DNA of 22,313 nucleotides from a virus, in IMG/VR virus record IMGVR_UViG_3300008517_000287, positions 1 through 22,313 of that record; one strand, given 5' to 3'. The notes beneath the pieces were generated by a model. That model saw nothing but the letters and a program-made list of their open reading frames with translations, had not been told where the DNA came from and did not search any database. Position numbers and translations under genes: made by a program. Every line of letters starts with the position of its first letter. Positions within the stretch are counted from its first letter, which is position 1. Of this stretch, positions 1,450 to 13,206 are shown in pieces.

Positions 1450-2964
1450 ATGAGTAGAACAGCTACTTTAACTGCAGAGCAAATCCATGGATTCACATCC
1501 TCTTTGCTTATGCGCAATTTTGACCAGCCCCAGCCGACACCTGCTTGTCATTTAGAATGGTGGAAACTGGTCACGCTGCCGGAGCGCAAGGTCGCTATTG
1601 CTGCTCCGCGTGGACACGCTAAGTCAACAGCGATTACCCATGCGTTTACCTTGGCAGCTCTTTTATTCCGATTCAGGGACCATTGCATGATTGTCTCTGA
1701 TACTGAGGAACAGGCTTGTGCCTTCCTTGGGGATATAAAGATGGAGCTCACGGAAAATGATGATCTTAGGGAACTCTTTGGAATCAGTAAATTCCTTAGG
1801 GAGAAAGAAAGTGAGATCGTTGTTATGTGTGAGGATCTACATAAGTTTCGTATAATTGCCCGCGGTAGTAACCAGAAATTACGTGGATTGAAATGGAGAA
1901 ATAAGCGTCCCAATCTTATTATTGGGGACGATTTGGAAAACGACGAGATGGTGATGAGCCAGGATCGTCGTCAGAAGTTCCACAATTGGTTCCTAAAGGC
2001 ACTCCTTCCTTCTGGAAGTGATGATGCAGTATTTAGGGTAGTTGGAACTATTCTGCATTTAGACTCAATGCTTGAGAGGTTGATGCCTCCAATTGGCGCA
2101 AGAGACACACTAATTGATGGGCTGAGATCTACATCTTCTAATACTAAGAAGATATGGAAATCTGTCAGGTACAAGGCCCATAATGAAGATTTCTCTGATA
2201 TTCTATGGCCTGAGAAGTTCACACAGAAACGTCTTGAAGATGAGAGGCAGGATTACATAGATCAAGGATATCCGGAAGGTTATGCACAAGAATATCTCAA
2301 CTACCCAATCGACGACTCCACAGCCTATTTCAGAAAAGACGACTTTAGATTTGAATATGATTTCAGAGAGCTACAGGGAACTCCCCTCCATTATTACACT
2401 GCTATTGATTTCGCAATATCACAGAGGGAACGAGCTGACTATACTGCAATCGTCACTATCGGAATAGACAGTGATAATAAGATGTATGTGGTAGATGCAA
2501 GGAAAGGTAGATGGGATGCTATGGAGATCATTGATGAAATGTTCAATGTGCATATGACATACCAGCCAGAATTATTTACGACAGAGGTAGGTGCAATAGA
2601 AAAGGCTCTTGGGCCTTTCTTAAGAAAAGAGATGCAGGATAGAGGGGTGTTTATTAACCTTAATCCTTTACCGCCTACTGCTGATAAAGTAGCTAGAGCA
2701 AAGTCCATACAAGCTCGTCTTCGTCAAGGGAATGTGTGGTTTGACAAAGAATTTGATTGGTATCCTGACTTTGAGGCTGAACTTCGTCATTTTCCGCGGG
2801 GAGCGCATGATGACTATGTTGATGCTTTCGCATGGATAGGTCTCACCCTTGCTAACATGATAGAAGCTCCAACAGCTTCTGAATGGGCGGATGAGTTGTG
2901 GGAAGAAGAGGTTGGTGATACTGCACTATTTCCTGATGGAAGATGTGCCATAACAGGGTACTAA
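1450..2964 (+). CDS. terL: Terminase large subunit (packaging ATPase/nuclease)
   Basis: A 504-aa motor that translocates DNA into the prohead through the portal and cuts the concatemer. N-terminal ATPase: Walker A-like APRGHAKST at residues 52-60, Walker B LIIGDD with following acidic residues at 157-165, and a coupling VGT at 198-200. C-terminal RNase H-like nuclease: Asp in the AIDFA segment (residue 320), Glu in TEVGAIEKA (379), and the HDDYVDA cluster at 453-459. Both domains are complete and the length is normal for the family. The start ATG follows directly on the stop of the 55-aa gene, implying coupling; no strong separate ribosome site is seen. Confidence 0.96.
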   Translation: MSRTATLTAEQIHGFTSSLLMRNFDQPQPTPACHLEWWKLVTLPERKVAIAAPRGHAKSTAITHAFTLAALLFRFRDHCMIVSDTEEQACAFLGDIKMELTENDDLRELFGISKFLREKESEIVVMCEDLHKFRIIARGSNQKLRGLKWRNKRPNLIIGDDLENDEMVMSQDRRQKFHNWFLKALLPSGSDDAVFRVVGTILHLDSMLERLMPPIGARDTLIDGLRSTSSNTKKIWKSVRYKAHNEDFSDILWPEKFTQKRLEDERQDYIDQGYPEGYAQEYLNYPIDDSTAYFRKDDFRFEYDFRELQGTPLHYYTAIDFAISQRERADYTAIVTIGIDSDNKMYVVDARKGRWDAMEIIDEMFNVHMTYQPELFTTEVGAIEKALGPFLRKEMQDRGVFINLNPLPPTADKVARAKSIQARLRQGNVWFDKEFDWYPDFEAELRHFPRGAHDDYVDAFAWIGLTLANMIEAPTASEWADELWEEEVGDTALFPDGRCAITGY

Positions 2965-2970
2965 TAGTAT

Positions 2971-4902
2971 ATGAGCAATTATATTAAAAATCCAATTTCT
3001 ATGGAGAAGATAACTTCTAATGTATCTATTGTAGATGAATTAGATGAGAAAGATCTCGAAGCTATTGGTACTTATGTATGTGAAACGTATGATGAAGATG
3101 AGTTATCCCGAGATACCTATATCACTAATATAGAATCTTGGACTCGTCTTGCGATGCAAACAGTTGAAGAAAAAACATTCCCTTGGGTAGGAGCCGCCAA
3201 CGTAAAGTTCCCATTACTCACAATTGCTGCTCTGCAGTTCTCTGCTAGAGCATACCCAGCGCTAGTCCCAGGAACTAATGTAGTAAAGGGAAAAGTTATT
3301 GGGTTTGACCCAGAAGGGAAAAAGAGAGACCGGGCTATCCGTGTTGGTAAGCACATGAGCTACCAACTACTAGAGCAGATGGAAGATTGGGAAGAAGAGA
3401 TGGATCGTCTTCTCTTTGCCTTACCTATCATAGGATGCATGTTTAAGAAGACATATTTTGATTCTATCAAAGGAACAAATGTTAGTGAGGTAGTGTATCC
3501 TAAAGAGTTAGTAATTAACTACTGGGCTAAGTCTTTAGCAGATGCGGATCGCGTAACTCATATTCTTTCTTTGAATGAGAATGAAGTTTATGAAAGGCAA
3601 GCAGAAGGAACGTATGCTGATGTAGAACTTTCTAGACCTCCTATGGAAGATATGATTGATGAGAACAGGGATGAGATGATAGGAACTTCTCCTGAAGGGA
3701 TGGATAATCGGGATGAAGCTCCTTACAAGGTGTTGGAGCAACATTGTTACTGTGATCTAGATGGTGATGGGTACAAAGAACCCTATGTAATTACTGTGGA
3801 TTATGGATCAAAGAATGTATTGAGGATTGTTCCTAGGTTTAACTCAGAGAGTATTAAGATTACTGCAGATGGTGAGAAGATCATAAAGATCACTCCAGAT
3901 CAGTATTTTACTAAGTTCTCCTTTATTCCTTCTCCTGATGGTGGGTTCTATGATATAGGATTTGGTATTCTTCTTGGTCCTATCAACGACACAATCAACA
4001 CAACCATTAACCAGCTTATAGATGCTGGAACTCTTAGCAACAGACAAGCTGGATTTATATCGAAAGGAATTCGTATAAAAGGAGGTAACAAATCGTTTAC
4101 TCCTGGTGAATGGAAATTTGCTAATGCTACTGGTGATGATCTCCGTAAAGGGATTGTACCACTACCAACTAAGGAACCTTCTTCTGTTCTATTTAATCTG
4201 TTAAGTTTGATGATAGAATATGGAGAAAAGATATCTTCTGTACAAGATATGATGACTGGAAAACTGCCGGGGCAGAACACAAAAGCTACTGTAGCGCTAG
4301 CTTCTATAGAACAAGGAATGAAAGTATTCTCTTCTATCTACAAGAGAATTTATCGTTCTCTTACCAAAGAATATAAACTGTTAAGTAAACTTAACTATGA
4401 GTATCTAGCTCCCGAAGAATATTTCTCAGTACTCGATCTTGGGGACGAACGGGCTGATACTATAAAGAATGCGGATTACAATCCAGAAGATATTGATGTA
4501 AGACCTTCTGCAGATCCTAATGTTGCTACTGAGGAACAACGCCTTGCTAAAGTTCAAGCTTTGTTCGAAGTACTGCAACTAGGAACAGTTAATGTACAAG
4601 AAGTTACTCGCAGATATCTTGAGGCTACAGAGCAGCCTAACCAAGAAATACTTATGCAAGTTCCTCCTCGTGGTCCTTCTCAAGAAGAGTTGGATTACCA
4701 ACTTAAGCAACGGGAACTTGATATTAGAGAATTTGAAGCATACGTAAAAGGTATTCTTCAGATAGCCCAAGCTGAGGGCGTAGAACCTGGAAATCAGTTA
4801 AAACTGTATGATGAGCAAATCAAAGAACTTAAAGTTCGATTAGATGCAAGAGCAAAAGCTTCAAAGGGGGCAACAAATGCAGGCACCACTAACACAGGAT
4901 GA
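2971..4902 (+). CDS. Portal protein (head-tail connector)
   Basis: A 643-aa protein with features of podovirus portals, which form the dodecameric ring through which DNA enters and leaves the capsid. Residues 50-101 contain a Trp/Arg-containing helix, then a PWVGAANVKFP segment and a long helix ending SARAYPALVPG, typical of this portal group. A charged, probably coiled-coil stretch lies at about 570-605, followed by an Asn/Thr/Gly tail. It directly follows the large terminase and precedes scaffold and capsid genes. The ribosome site is weak (GGGTACTAATAGTAT before the ATG), suggesting coupling to the terminase. Its last 26 nt overlap the next gene. Confidence 0.9.
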   Translation: MSNYIKNPISMEKITSNVSIVDELDEKDLEAIGTYVCETYDEDELSRDTYITNIESWTRLAMQTVEEKTFPWVGAANVKFPLLTIAALQFSARAYPALVPGTNVVKGKVIGFDPEGKKRDRAIRVGKHMSYQLLEQMEDWEEEMDRLLFALPIIGCMFKKTYFDSIKGTNVSEVVYPKELVINYWAKSLADADRVTHILSLNENEVYERQAEGTYADVELSRPPMEDMIDENRDEMIGTSPEGMDNRDEAPYKVLEQHCYCDLDGDGYKEPYVITVDYGSKNVLRIVPRFNSESIKITADGEKIIKITPDQYFTKFSFIPSPDGGFYDIGFGILLGPINDTINTTINQLIDAGTLSNRQAGFISKGIRIKGGNKSFTPGEWKFANATGDDLRKGIVPLPTKEPSSVLFNLLSLMIEYGEKISSVQDMMTGKLPGQNTKATVALASIEQGMKVFSSIYKRIYRSLTKEYKLLSKLNYEYLAPEEYFSVLDLGDERADTIKNADYNPEDIDVRPSADPNVATEEQRLAKVQALFEVLQLGTVNVQEVTRRYLEATEQPNQEILMQVPPRGPSQEELDYQLKQRELDIREFEAYVKGILQIAQAEGVEPGNQLKLYDEQIKELKVRLDARAKASKGATNAGTTNTG

Positions 4903-5161
4903 CTTAGAATCCGTAGCACAAGAAATAGAGAATAATGATATAAGTAAAGAAGAGTATGAACAGTGGCTAAATAACAAAGTAACTAGAAACGTATTTGACC
5001 AAATTAAGTTAGAAGAAGCTAGATCAGTTCTAGCCATAAAGACAAGCCCAGGTAATGTTATCGGTATCACTCCTTCGCAGGACATTATGATAGGAAGGAT
5101 ACAAGGATACAATTGGGTTCTTGACCTTAACTACGAGGATGATACTAAATATGACCACTAG
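4877..5161 (+). CDS. Small acidic protein overlapping portal end
   Basis: A 94-aa frame beginning inside the portal gene in the +1 register relative to it. The frame opens further upstream (ATG 4844), but AAAGGGGG at 4863-4870 sits 6 nt before ATG 4877, making 4877 the better start. Residues 5-45 are acidic and probably helical; residues 50-85 look like a small mixed alpha/beta unit ending in acidic DDTKYDH. I do not recognise the family. Position between portal and co-chaperonin suggests a head-assembly accessory. Its stop overlaps the next start by 11 nt. Confidence 0.7.
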   Translation: MQAPLTQDDLESVAQEIENNDISKEEYEQWLNNKVTRNVFDQIKLEEARSVLAIKTSPGNVIGITPSQDIMIGRIQGYNWVLDLNYEDDTKYDH

Positions 5162-5474
5162 ATTTAAGGCCATAGGGCACAGGGTTCTGATAGAACCAGT
5201 ACTAAATGAGAACAATGGTAAGACTGAGTGGGGATTTGATTTATCTAACACAAAGACTTACAAAGCAGAAATAGCTGCTACAGAGCGAGGACGTATAGTT
5301 GATATTGGTCCTAACGCATGGAAGGCTTATGACGATGGTAAGCCATGGGCAAAAGTAGGTGATATTGTTATCTTTGCTAAACATGCTGGTAAGTTTGTAG
5401 CACACCCGGACGATCCGGATACTGTGTATGTTGTCATTAATGATGATGACGTGCAACTTAGAATAGAGGAATAA
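5151..5474 (+). CDS. GroES-like co-chaperonin
   Basis: A 107-aa protein aligning by eye to GroES along its whole length: an N-terminal HRVLIEPV strand (residues 10-17), a flexible region at 18-44, ERGRIVDIG at 45-53, KVGDIVIF at 68-75 (a GroES family hallmark), and a C-terminal VYVVINDDDVQLRIE strand. Such proteins cap host GroEL and can enlarge or adapt the folding chamber for capsid protein, as T4 gp31 does. The likely GroEL-contacting tripeptide in the mobile loop is FDL (29-31) instead of the bacterial IVL. ATG 5151 is preferred over the in-frame TTG at 5121: it starts just before the conserved region and has GAGGA at 5135-5139. It lies between portal and scaffold genes, consistent with a capsid-folding role. 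Confidence 0.85.
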   Translation: MTTRFKAIGHRVLIEPVLNENNGKTEWGFDLSNTKTYKAEIAATERGRIVDIGPNAWKAYDDGKPWAKVGDIVIFAKHAGKFVAHPDDPDTVYVVINDDDVQLRIEE

Positions 5475-6318: not shown

Positions 6319-6777
6319 ATGACTAGTAATCAAACTACTACACCTAAACGGCGCGGTCGTCCACGCAAGGTTGACAATGTTCACCTGCAAGGTAGTCGCC
6401 CAAAAAGGGTTCCGATTAGCGGAGCAAGGCCAAAAATGGAAGTACCGAAAGAAGCCTTAGACCCTAATTACTTTTACTATTGGTTTAACGACGTTAACAA
6501 TGATATCTACCATGCTAAACAGGCAGGGTTTGTCCATGTTCAAGTAGATGAAGTTCCGTTAAGTAATTTCGGAGTGGACACATCTAATTCTGGATCTTCT
6601 GACGTTTCAATGCGAGTGGGGCAAGGTGTGACCGCTTTTTTGATGAAACAACCCAAGGAATTTAGGGATGAAGATGTAGCAGCCTATAATGCACGGGTGG
6701 ATGAAAGTGAGAGCGCGTTAAAAGAAAAACTTAACAGCGGACAAGATGGACAATATGGTAAGGTTACTATTGATTAA
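6319..6777 (+). CDS. AT-hook-containing virion-associated protein
   Basis: A 152-aa protein starting with a disordered, basic region that includes PKRRGRPRK at about residues 9-17, matching the AT-hook (RGRP) DNA minor-groove motif. A domain around residues 45-75 (DPNYFYYWFNDVNNDIYHAKQAG) resembles small proteins in phage head clusters carrying a YRW-ND pattern. The C-terminal third is charged and helical. Function unknown; a minor head protein touching packaged DNA is possible. AGGAGA at 6308-6313 is a strong ribosome site. Confidence 0.7.
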   Translation: MTSNQTTTPKRRGRPRKVDNVHLQGSRPKRVPISGARPKMEVPKEALDPNYFYYWFNDVNNDIYHAKQAGFVHVQVDEVPLSNFGVDTSNSGSSDVSMRVGQGVTAFLMKQPKEFRDEDVAAYNARVDESESALKEKLNSGQDGQYGKVTID

Positions 6778-6829: not shown

Positions 6830-7462
6830 ATGGCTAATTTTGACAACCCAAATGGTGCATACCCTGTAGGCACACTGAGTGGTAGTCCTTGGCAAGCTTC
6901 TGTTCGAGCATATCAGCTCGATGCCACCCATTCTGCTATTGCGGTGGGGGATCTTGTTCAAATGACTTCTGACGGCTACCCTGATGTGTACGCAGCAGGC
7001 GAGGTCGGTTTTATTGGTGTGTGCGTTGGTGTGTTGCCTGCTACTGCAACTACTGTGAATGGTAAACTTGGCGACAATATGCTTTCTAACTCCGAGCCTA
7101 CTATTTCTGGTGCTGCAGTTCGTAATTCAGCGGCTAACGCTACTGATGTTATTCTAGTGTGTACTGCACCTGATGCACTCTATGAGATGCAAGAAGATGG
7201 GGATACAACTCCTCTTGTCCTTGCTGATCGTGGTGCAAATGTTGAAATTATCAATGCTGGCGTTAATTCCACTACTGGTAATTCTACAATGGAAATTGAT
7301 TCTACTTCTAAGGCACAAACTGCTACCCTTCCCTTCATTCTGTTGGATTTGGTGCAGCGTCCTGGTAATGAATTGGCATCCATTGATGCGACCAAACCAT
7401 GGACTCGCTGGATCGTAACTCCAGCTAACCATGCGTTCAATCTGGCGCAAGTTGGGCTTTAA
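6830..7462 (+). CDS. Putative head decoration / minor capsid protein
   Basis: A 210-aa, mostly beta-strand protein with no signal peptide or membrane segment. It opens with FDNPNGAYPVGTLSGSPW and continues with a GDLVQMTSDGYPDVYAAGE segment, a pattern found in phage proteins encoded directly before the major capsid gene and thought to be capsid-associated. Location between the AT-hook gene and the capsid gene fits a decoration or cement role. AGGAG at 6818-6822 lies 7 nt upstream of the ATG. The assignment rests mostly on position and composition. Confidence 0.65.
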   Translation: MANFDNPNGAYPVGTLSGSPWQASVRAYQLDATHSAIAVGDLVQMTSDGYPDVYAAGEVGFIGVCVGVLPATATTVNGKLGDNMLSNSEPTISGAAVRNSAANATDVILVCTAPDALYEMQEDGDTTPLVLADRGANVEIINAGVNSTTGNSTMEIDSTSKAQTATLPFILLDLVQRPGNELASIDATKPWTRWIVTPANHAFNLAQVGL

Positions 7463-7475
7463 GGAGGAATAAAAA

Positions 7476-8384
7476 ATGCCTATTACTACTGGTAGTTTTG
7501 CCAAAGCACTCTGGCCCGGCGTTAATGCATGGTATGGTAAAGCATACAATGAACACCGAGAAGAGTGTACAGACCTGTTTAATACTTACGGCTCGCGTAA
7601 AGCGTGGGAAGAAGATGTAGGTATTTCAGGATTTGGGCTGGCTAGTGTCAAGCCCGAAGGTCAACAGGTATCTTATGATACCGAGCAACAGAGTTTCTTG
7701 ACTCGTTATACGCATGTCGTGTATGCTCTTGGGTTTATCATCACTCGTGAAATGGTTGATGATGATCTCTATGATGTAGTCGGCAAGCGGCGTTCTCAGG
7801 GACTCGCATTTTCTATTCGTCAAACCAAGGAGACCGTTGCTGCGAACGTATACAATCGTGCGTTCAACTCTTCGTACACTGGTGGTGACGGTGTGGAAAT
7901 GATTAGTACTGCTCATCTGGCGACAAACGGCCCTAGCTGGTCGAATGAGCTGGCTGTTGCTGCTGCACTTTCTGAAGCAAGTTTGGAAGATCTGTGCATT
8001 CAGATCATGAACGCAACCAATGACCGTGGTCTGAGGATTTCGTTGATGCCTGAAACGCTGCATGTTCCGCCTGCTTTGGTGTTTGAAGCGGATCGTATTT
8101 TAAATACCCCGCTCCGTGTTGGTACTGCGGATAATGATATTAACTCTCTGAAGAACATGGGCAAGTTCCCTGGTGGTACGATTGTTAATCATTACTTCAC
8201 TAGTACTAGTGCTTACTTCCTCCGGACTAATTGCCCGGATGGCATGAAGTACTTTGAGCGTCGTGCTGACGATTTCTCGATGGATAACGATTTCGATACT
8301 GACAATGCGAAGTATAAGGCTACTTCCCGTTACAGTTTCGGCTGGACTGATCCTCGTGGAATCTACGGTTCCGAAGGCGTGTAA
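7476..8384 (+). CDS. Major capsid protein (HK97-type fold expected)
   Basis: A 302-aa protein with major-head-subunit features: a helical N-terminus (FAKALWPGVNAWYGKAYNEH), a conserved-type segment with VYALGFIITREMVDDDLYDVV at about 84-104, a long helix with RQTKETVAANVYNRAFN at about 115-132, an H-L-rich surface loop, and a C-terminal segment ending in YSFGWTDPRGIYGS. It resembles the Mu gpT-like group in length and general pattern. It has the strongest ribosome site in the window (AAGGAGGA at 7461-7468) and is followed by an intrinsic terminator, as expected for the most abundant protein. No delta-domain or protease-cleavage site is evident. Confidence 0.88.
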   Translation: MPITTGSFAKALWPGVNAWYGKAYNEHREECTDLFNTYGSRKAWEEDVGISGFGLASVKPEGQQVSYDTEQQSFLTRYTHVVYALGFIITREMVDDDLYDVVGKRRSQGLAFSIRQTKETVAANVYNRAFNSSYTGGDGVEMISTAHLATNGPSWSNELAVAAALSEASLEDLCIQIMNATNDRGLRISLMPETLHVPPALVFEADRILNTPLRVGTADNDINSLKNMGKFPGGTIVNHYFTSTSAYFLRTNCPDGMKYFERRADDFSMDNDFDTDNAKYKATSRYSFGWTDPRGIYGSEGV

Positions 8385-8390
8385 TTGATC

Positions 8391-8411
8391 GGGGGCCGCA
8401 AGGCCCCCTTT
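8391..8411 (+). terminator. Intrinsic terminator after the capsid gene
   Basis: A perfect 7-bp GC stem, GGGGGCC (8391-8397) with GGCCCCC (8402-8408), closes a GCAA tetraloop and is followed by TTTCTCTC. The T-tract is short, so termination is likely partial. It lies 6 nt after the capsid stop codon, where it could raise capsid mRNA over the genes downstream. Confidence 0.8.
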
Positions 8412-11484: not shown

Positions 11485-11987
11485 CAGTTAAAACGGAAGA
11501 TGAGCTGAATACTGATTTTGCGGACGCTCAATTCAGAGGTATTAGTGCTCAAAAACTGAGAGACTTTGTAGACAGCCGCTTTGCTGTTGGTGGTATTATG
11601 TATGGGCAGGACGCAGCTCAAAATGTAACAACTGGTGTTACAGAATACGCCCCCTATGATGCCTCATCGGATACCAAGGGAGTTACAGAAAATCTTGTAA
11701 CTGGTGAATATACAATAGATGCTGGTGCTGATGGCGCATATTCAATGGCTCTTGTAGCTATTATTGAAGCTCCTGGCCCTGGTACTATTGAGTTTGGCCT
11801 TACCAAGAATGGTAGTCCTCTGACGTTTAGGTGTAGCTTACCAGTACTTGCTGATACCCCCACTCTATATACTATTATAGGTGGTACGTCTGCAGCAGTT
11901 GGAGATACTCTTGGGGTTAAGTGGACAGGATCTGCTAATGCCCCTGTAATTATACATGATACTCAGTTTCGCGTAGTCAGGGCTTAA
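11481..11987 (+). CDS. Small fibre-like protein with jelly-roll C-terminus
   Basis: A 168-aa protein. The N-terminal 35 residues, with FRGISAQKLRDFVDSRF, match the short attachment helix found at the start of many phage fibre or baseplate-associated proteins. Residues 36-168 are beta-rich, with GEYTIDAGADGAYSMALVAII, TIEFGLTKNG and a C-terminal IIHDTQFRVVRA strand, resembling C1q/TNF-like trimeric jelly rolls of receptor-binding proteins. The ATGA overlap shows coupling to the gene before it. Probable virion surface protein; the target is unknown. Confidence 0.65.
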   Translation: MTVKTEDELNTDFADAQFRGISAQKLRDFVDSRFAVGGIMYGQDAAQNVTTGVTEYAPYDASSDTKGVTENLVTGEYTIDAGADGAYSMALVAIIEAPGPGTIEFGLTKNGSPLTFRCSLPVLADTPTLYTIIGGTSAAVGDTLGVKWTGSANAPVIIHDTQFRVVRA

Positions 11988-11988
11988 T

Positions 11989-13206
11989 GTGCCAAAAAGA
12001 ATAAAAGATCAGAACACCTACATTCATGGATCTCATAATGAGCTATGTGATGTGTGTGGTTTTAAGTTTAAAACTGAGGACATGCACACTAGGTGGGATG
12101 GTCTTAGAACATGCCATGATGATTTTGAAGAACGTCATCCTATGGATTTCTTTAGGGCATTTCCTGATGACCAGAATGTAAATGATCCGGATGCTGACGA
12201 TACAGATAATAGTGGGGTTAACACAATCCCACCATCTACTAACGGTCCTATACCAGCCCAGAGTAATTTTAATGGACAGACCATAACCCCTCTGGATGTT
12301 TCTGCATTCTTTGTGGAAGGGAATGGTACTAACGTTAAGTACGTAGCTACAAAGCTACCTGCTGGTCTAGTACTTGATTCAAGTACTGGCATTATATCTG
12401 GTACTGTTAATTCTATAGCATCTAATTCTTCTCCATATCCAGTTACAATAACATTAACTACATCTTATTCGGCTGTTTATTCAGTATCTTTAAGTTTCTC
12501 CTGGGAGATAACTGCAAGCTATGCAGAACTTATTCTTTCTACTGCTTCTATAATTAGTGTTGAGGGGTACTGGAAATTTGATACAGAGGCTGGACTTACA
12601 GTCACAGATTTCTCTGGTAATAGCAGAGACATGACTAGACCTGTGGCCTTTCCGTTAGCTGCTGGTAAAGTAAACCAAGCTATAGATTTTCCTGGTGGAA
12701 ACCAGAATGGTAATGATTGTGTAGGTGGTCCTTTTACTGGCTGGCCCGCAAATTTCTTAGATGATTTTACTATTGAAGCATGGGTCAACTTTAATGCTGC
12801 TCCCATAACTTTTGCAAGTATACTAAATGTTAATGGGGTTGGTAATGTTATTGGGTTAAACGTAGAAGTTAATACAAGTACTACAACCACAGATCCATTA
12901 ACTGTTCTGGTACAATCAACAGCTACCGTAACGTTTGCTGATATTTTGACTGTCGGCACATGGCACCATGTAGTTGCTACTTACGACAGGACTAGTAATG
13001 TTACTACTCTTTATATTGATGGAGCATCCGCAGGAACAGCGGCAGCAGCCAATCCAGTTGACGCCCAAACTAGTGTTATGAGTGGTAAGCGAGTAACTGG
13101 TAACGTACCAGCGCTGGATGGTCTTGTGGATGAATTAGTTCTATATAGAGGTGTTATGTCTTTGGCTGATGTGCAGGCCCATTATAATGCTGGTCTTGCT
13201 CTCTAA
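11989..13206 (+). CDS. Zinc-finger-like / Ig-like / LamG fusion protein
   Basis: A 405-aa, three-part protein starting at GTG 11989 with AGGG at 11979-11982; the ATG two bases earlier runs into a stop after five codons. Residues 15-56 contain CDVCGFKF and TCHDDFEERHP, a small cysteine-containing domain that I know mainly as a separate short protein in phage structural clusters; Cys20, Cys23 and Cys42 could bind zinc. Residues 85-175 include GLVLDSSTGIISGTV, the signature of putative Ig (He_PIG-type) domains. Residues 190-405 are a LamG/concanavalin-like lectin: YWKFDTEAG, FTIEAWVNF, TWHHVVATYDR, LYIDG and LDGLVDELVLYRGVMS. Probable glycan-binding virion protein anchored by its N-terminal domain. 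Confidence 0.8.
   Translation: MPKRIKDQNTYIHGSHNELCDVCGFKFKTEDMHTRWDGLRTCHDDFEERHPMDFFRAFPDDQNVNDPDADDTDNSGVNTIPPSTNGPIPAQSNFNGQTITPLDVSAFFVEGNGTNVKYVATKLPAGLVLDSSTGIISGTVNSIASNSSPYPVTITLTTSYSAVYSVSLSFSWEITASYAELILSTASIISVEGYWKFDTEAGLTVTDFSGNSRDMTRPVAFPLAAGKVNQAIDFPGGNQNGNDCVGGPFTGWPANFLDDFTIEAWVNFNAAPITFASILNVNGVGNVIGLNVEVNTSTTTTDPLTVLVQSTATVTFADILTVGTWHHVVATYDRTSNVTTLYIDGASAGTAAAANPVDAQTSVMSGKRVTGNVPALDGLVDELVLYRGVMSLADVQAHYNAGLAL

Follow-up and report, generated by a model that had tools for sequence, protein, structure and literature searches.

A phage-encoded GroES-like co-chaperonin with a long mobile loop and an aromatic roof segment, encoded upstream of a scaffold-like gene and the capsid gene

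The DNA analyzed here, called the window throughout, is a 22,313-nt IMG/VR stretch, i.e., a virus contig of only 22.3 kb, and all coordinates are positions in it. The window carries a phage head module that runs from the terminase to the major capsid protein and includes a gene for a Cpn10/GroES-like co-chaperonin (Table 1). A preliminary description, made from the sequence alone, had placed this gene between the portal and scaffold genes within the head module. The scaffold-like gene is indeed the next one downstream, but on the upstream side a 105-aa ORF intervenes after the portal gene, overlapping the end of the latter by 59 bases and the start of the Cpn10 gene by 11. The protein encoded by this ORF is identical in two near-identical contigs (L002 and L003), and a small ORF at the corresponding place in locus L009 likewise overlaps Cpn10. 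The product of the gene that follows Cpn10 would be a scaffold protein, judging from its place and composition. Compared with L002, this gene shows 10 amino-acid vs. 6 silent changes, unlike its neighbours, in what is a small sample. The product of the 210-aa ORF could possibly be a decoration protein or another head protein. The head operon may close with the hairpin directly behind the capsid gene, a reading made plausible by its position and not by the count of such sites, four of which were found in the region vs. 2.9 expected by chance. Promoter-like sites around the Cpn10 gene were no more numerous than expected by chance, and no tRNA was found in the window. Positions 11989-13206 encode a Laminin_G_3 lectin-like domain (2.5e-19) together with a putative Ig domain (2.8e-10), probably in a tail or adhesion protein.

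Table 1. Features of the head module and of the Cpn10 gene within the window.
Feature	Position	Strand	Basis or remark
Terminase large subunit (terL)	1450..2964	+	PHROG 38, 7e-87; Pfam Terminase_6C
Portal protein, SU10-type, 72.5 kDa	2971..4902	+	Pfam SU10_portal, 2.7e-9; PHROG 1216, 1.7e-24
105-aa ORF between portal and Cpn10	4844..5161	+	No credible Pfam or PHROG family match
Cpn10/GroES-like co-chaperonin gene, phage-encoded	5151..5474	+	107 aa, 12.0 kDa; Pfam, PHROG, AlphaFold2, Foldseek
Mobile-loop segment, residues 12-46, between conserved R11 and G47	5184..5288	+	Alignment-based lengths; low pLDDT at residues 21-40
Putative GroEL-binding tripeptide FDL, residues 29-31	5235..5243	+	Alignments with GroES I25-V26-L27
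Roof segment, residues 54-69 (PNAWKAYDDGKPWAKV), aromatics W57, Y60, W66	5310..5357	+	Alignment
Scaffold-like acidic protein, 270 aa	5477..6289	+	Directly downstream of Cpn10; home-made profile; no library match
152-aa head-module ORF	6319..6777	+	Order conserved in L010, L004, L007, L009, L011
210-aa head-module ORF	6830..7462	+	Conserved order; PHROG 37556, 4e-6 (unknown-function family)
Major capsid protein, 302 aa, 33.6 kDa	7476..8384	+	Pfam Phage_capsid_4, 3e-13; PHROG 371, 1.6e-12
Intrinsic-terminator-like hairpin, 7 GC pairs, T-rich tail	8391..8408	+	Directly 3' of the capsid gene

The Cpn10 reading frame opens with an ATG at 5151 and comprises 107 codons on the plus strand, with a stop that ends at 5474. 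The preliminary description had reported an end-to-end match to GroES on the strength of three motifs, HRVLIEP, ERGRIVDIG, and KVGDIVIF. All three are present in the product, and the match to the Pfam Cpn10 family (PF00166; E = 1.9e-6, 28.3 bits vs. a curated cut-off of 21.1) covers profile positions 2-89 of 93. The product also matches PHROG 3188, “co-chaperonin GroES”, at 6e-9. A PDB search with a profile of 35 viral Cpn10 homologues retrieved GroES, Hsp10, and chloroplast Cpn20 chains, with E-values down to 5e-20. The AlphaFold2 monomer model of the window protein, for which the alignment behind this profile was the input, has the GroES-type beta-barrel fold (mean pLDDT 80, pTM 0.70), and residues 21-40, the site of the mobile loop, are modelled with low pLDDT (block means 51 and 57). 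When the PDB was searched with Foldseek, the best 34 matches were all of the Cpn10, Hsp10, or gp31 type (best E 1.3e-6), and the top query-normalised TM-score among the matches listed, 0.67, was that of T4 gp31. The preliminary description had named two outcomes as refuting, a profile search that does not place the product in Cpn10 and a predicted fold lacking the mobile loop, and neither occurred. Overall, the gene at 5151-5474 encodes a member of the Cpn10/GroES family, with a membership far above chance, and a chance resemblance to GroES was ruled out by the profile and fold tests. Relative to the two near-identical contigs, its coding changes are one silent and no amino-acid change in one case, and two silent and one amino-acid change in the other.

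The module order (terL, portal, Cpn10, scaffold-like gene, two small ORFs, capsid) is kept in the five relatives named in Table 1 and largely kept in L008. An expanded set was obtained through a capsid-protein search and comprised loci from viral and bacterial genomes, including prophages in cultured bacteria, and only the best-scoring matches. Of these capsid-relative loci, 86 had either a portal gene or sufficient sequence on the upstream side, and in all 86 Cpn10 lies upstream of the capsid gene, at a distance of 2.1-3.6 kb. The capsid query alignment was built from Cpn10-bearing loci, and a few of the loci share a contig or genome, so that the linkage applies to close and middling relatives. 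Downstream of Cpn10, the home-made scaffold profile finds a match in 181 of the 184 loci that have room for the gene. All close relatives open to this comparison have Cpn10 in front of the scaffold-like and capsid genes, so that it probably belongs to the regular equipment of such phage heads and is not peculiar to one phage. Among 71 dereplicated loci, the distances between Cpn10 proteins correlate with those of both the portal (r = 0.86) and the capsid protein (r = 0.81), indicating long co-inheritance and arguing against recent capture from each host. Viral chaperonins have been read in some marine virus surveys as host genes captured for general stress or as auxiliary metabolic genes (PMC8407431). 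Such an origin and use of the window gene as a captured host GroES is improbable in the extreme, given its co-inheritance with the head genes, its fixed gene position, and the loop and roof features described below, which are absent from the bacterial GroES compared.

Cpn10 genes were also observed next to more distant head genes. In vir526 (L236), the host of which is given as Methanomicrobiales (archaeal), a 10-kDa chaperonin is annotated at 97-453, upstream of the terminase, and the capsid protein is very distant, with 24% identity to that of the window. In Xanthomonas phage PBR31 (L237), Cpn10 is likewise found upstream of the terminase, in this case with a head module whose capsid gene (11786-13102) is larger and of another kind, and the linkage between Cpn10 and head genes is thus not limited to the window capsid family. 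In addition, two prophages of the window type occur in one genome, on a contig of Phenylobacterium sp. J367 (L189 and L172), and the Cpn10 frame of one of them is broken, which reflects a pseudogene or else an error in the sequence.

Within the mobile loop, residues 28-31 read GFDL, and the alignment with E. coli GroES places FDL opposite IVL (I25-V26-L27), as the preliminary description had proposed, and directly after a conserved glycine. In GroES, the IVL tripeptide touches L234, L237, and V264 of GroEL, and the substitution L27A abolishes binding (PMC3514286). The leucine needed in GroES (L27) is retained in the window protein as L31. The further proposal that the tripeptide is functionally altered found no support when 181 aligned phage Cpn10 rows were surveyed (the window sequence is counted twice among them). 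Position 1 is hydrophobic in 100% of the phage sequences having that position and position 3 in 92% of the 181, while position 2 varies freely (I, L, Y, V, H, F, Q, D, M, E, A, K), and most other mobile-loop positions show wide variation as well. L010, which is the nearest relative that is still distinct (49% identity in a tblastn match), has FQL, and the Alcaligenes phage vB_Af_QDWS535 has IDL. FDL is not special, because with F and L both outer positions stay hydrophobic, and it departs from GroES in the middle, where the family tolerates many residues. It is a variant that preserves both outer hydrophobic positions, i.e., neither a lost, nor a broken, nor a new motif, and the tripeptide as a special adaptation was ruled out by the same survey.

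It is worth noting that the motif is not strict family-wide, with K or R at position 3 in about thirteen homologues. Examples of degenerate tripeptides include GWER in L092 (3725-4069) and IIK or ILK among L142, L167, L183, and L192. In these lineages, GroEL docking may be relaxed, changed, or lost. Degenerate tripeptides of this kind, together with a linkage to head genes that is universal in the loci sampled, would be in line with a Cpn10 fold that has been exapted to serve in head structure or assembly and has lost GroEL binding. We consider this very unlikely, since most homologues, including that of the window, keep the outer hydrophobic residues, for which a purely structural function would give no reason, and the loop shows the low model confidence that a disordered loop should have.

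The preliminary description had also noted that the mobile-loop region differs in composition from that of GroES, which we can confirm and extend, since the loop is longer too. Measured between the R11 and G47 landmarks, it has 35 residues in the window protein vs. 28 in E. coli GroES. In our bacterial comparison set, which consists of E. coli GroES and 34 further genes, Pseudomonadota only, the loop has 27-28 residues. By contrast, 179 of 181 phage Cpn10 loops are longer than those of all 35 bacterial GroES, and the remaining two come from frames that are truncated or broken. The roof segment is retained in the window protein, with 16 aligned residues vs. 17 in GroES. At least two aromatic residues are found in the roof of 171 of the 181 phage homologues, vs. 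at least one in only 1 of the 35 bacterial GroES, and nearly all phage sequences have Y, F, or W in columns 57 and 60. From these alignments, the longer loop and the aromatic roof segment appear as family-wide contrasts with bacterial GroES. Three homologues (L005, L009, and L115) have a short roof of 9-10 residues, nearer to the missing roof of gp31 than the rest.

These features bear on the parallel that the preliminary description drew with T4 gp31 and RB49 CocO, which alter the folding chamber for a large capsid subunit. A co-chaperonin of the gp31 kind would have evolved to enlarge the chamber for a phage protein too large or too badly shaped for the GroES-capped one. The loop of the window protein, seven residues longer than that of E. 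coli GroES, is consistent with this, as the gp31 loop is also longer than that of GroES (22 vs. 16 residues; PMC6318259), and gp31 gave the best TM-score as mentioned above. However, the roof is present in the window protein, while gp31 is without roof loops (PMC6318259), and the capsid protein, itself only the presumed client, is well below gp23 in size. We therefore regard chamber enlargement as rather unlikely. The parallel stands with respect to the longer loop (35 vs. at most 28 residues) and falls short with respect to the roof and the 33.6-kDa capsid protein, and the idea that the chamber is widened to take a big capsid subunit has weak support.

In agreement with the preliminary description, which had recognised no GroEL partner, a search for GroEL found none in the 22.3-kb window or in the records of 20 relatives (nine are phage-collection genomes, and several of the IMG/VR records may be fragments), while 14 of 14 control genomes were positive. 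In addition, genomes of Zavarzinia, Phenylobacterium, Sphingobium, and Leisingera contain a prophage Cpn10 along with a separate host GroES. With no phage GroEL in the window or these 20 records, the partner of the phage Cpn10 is presumably the host GroEL. This would be analogous to T4 gp31, which works with host GroEL in capsid folding (PMC3012670), and to phages encoding only GroES, for which host GroEL is stated as the partner (PMC7185714).

Overall, we consider it likely that the gene encodes a phage co-chaperonin that docks on host GroEL, and that its likeliest clients are the phage's own head proteins, the capsid protein first. Seven copies of Cpn10 would form a dome, which would dock on GroEL via the long disordered loop with its G-F-D-L motif and close the folding chamber during infection, with head proteins, and primarily the capsid protein, as the presumed clients inside. 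Family membership, fold, the G-hydrophobic-x-hydrophobic motif, the longer loop, the aromatic roof, and the linkage to head genes are the directly supported elements of this proposal. The capsid protein is named as the likeliest client because the Cpn10 gene heads the run of scaffold-like and capsid genes.

The essential client might instead be the portal or another large phage protein. The Cpn10 gene comes after the portal gene, the window portal is a 72.5-kDa protein, and the portal protein B of phage lambda requires GroES/EL (PMC3224144). The partial correlation of Cpn10 distances is also higher for the portal (0.48) than for the capsid protein (0.10), although both full correlations are high and not decisive for the choice of client. 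In terms of gene arrangement, the gap between portal and Cpn10 varies from 4 to 4077 nt (n = 123), vs. a near-fixed spacing between the end of Cpn10 and the scaffold-like frame (median 4 nt, n = 190), and many small genes separate the portal gene from Cpn10 in HTVC027P. We therefore consider the portal or another large protein unlikely as the essential client.

If the capsid protein is the client, as we prefer, the reasoning from size that is applied to gp23 does not transfer, since the window capsid protein is only 33.6 kDa. A client this small would need the co-chaperonin for some other reason, such as folding kinetics, the chemistry of the chamber, or the supply of lids during infection. 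It is also conceivable, and we suggest it tentatively and with more doubt than confidence, that these proteins form a distinct class of capsid-dedicated Cpn10, in which the docking motif is kept and the lid is rebuilt through the longer loop and the conserved aromatics of the roof. Such a lid would be adapted to folding a single family of small capsid proteins and would be obligatory for this family in very diverse hosts.

The family-wide pattern, with Cpn10 preceding the scaffold-like gene and the capsid gene in 86 loci, is more useful than the single gene. It lends itself well to the question of why a capsid protein of 34 kDa should need its own lid, given that the explanation for T4, where the client exceeds the chamber in size, fails here. 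A second question for this system is whether the aromatic roof changes the chemistry of the chamber. We did not meet the loop-length and aromatic-roof contrasts in the part of the literature covered, and claim no priority for them.

GroES is one of the 13 core genes in HTVC023P-type pelagiphages (PMC9599517), and a co-chaperonin GroES is annotated in CRP-901-type roseophages (PMC10149686) as well as in other phages met in this analysis. The window protein is a diverged member of this published phage GroES group, and the individual gene is ordinary for its group. In the HTVC023P-type and related phages (HTVC027P, CRP-901, 023Pt_psg01, and Caulobacter phage RW), Cpn10 is also found upstream of a scaffold-like gene and with a capsid protein of the window's family. 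Their Cpn10 proteins are about 32-37% identical to that of the window where compared, with tripeptides such as ILF or LIL, and more small genes are present from portal to Cpn10 than in the window. The phage vB_Af_QDWS535 shares the order terL, portal, Cpn10, scaffold-like gene, and capsid, the middle aspartate of the tripeptide, and a capsid protein that is 62% identical. However, its Cpn10 is about 36% identical and has isoleucine at tripeptide position 1, where that of the window has phenylalanine.

T4 gp31 and RB49 CocO resemble the window protein in being phage co-chaperonins. The T4 capsid protein gp23 has a mass of about 56 kDa. The roofless gp31 serves this larger protein, the capsid protein of the window is of 33.6 kDa, and the roof of the window Cpn10 is both present and aromatic. 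Bacterial GroES shares with the window protein the fold, the conserved glycines, and the G-hydrophobic-x-hydrophobic tripeptide, but differs in its shorter loop (27-28 vs. 35 residues), in a roof without aromatics in 34 of 35 sequences, and in a tripeptide that is mostly III.
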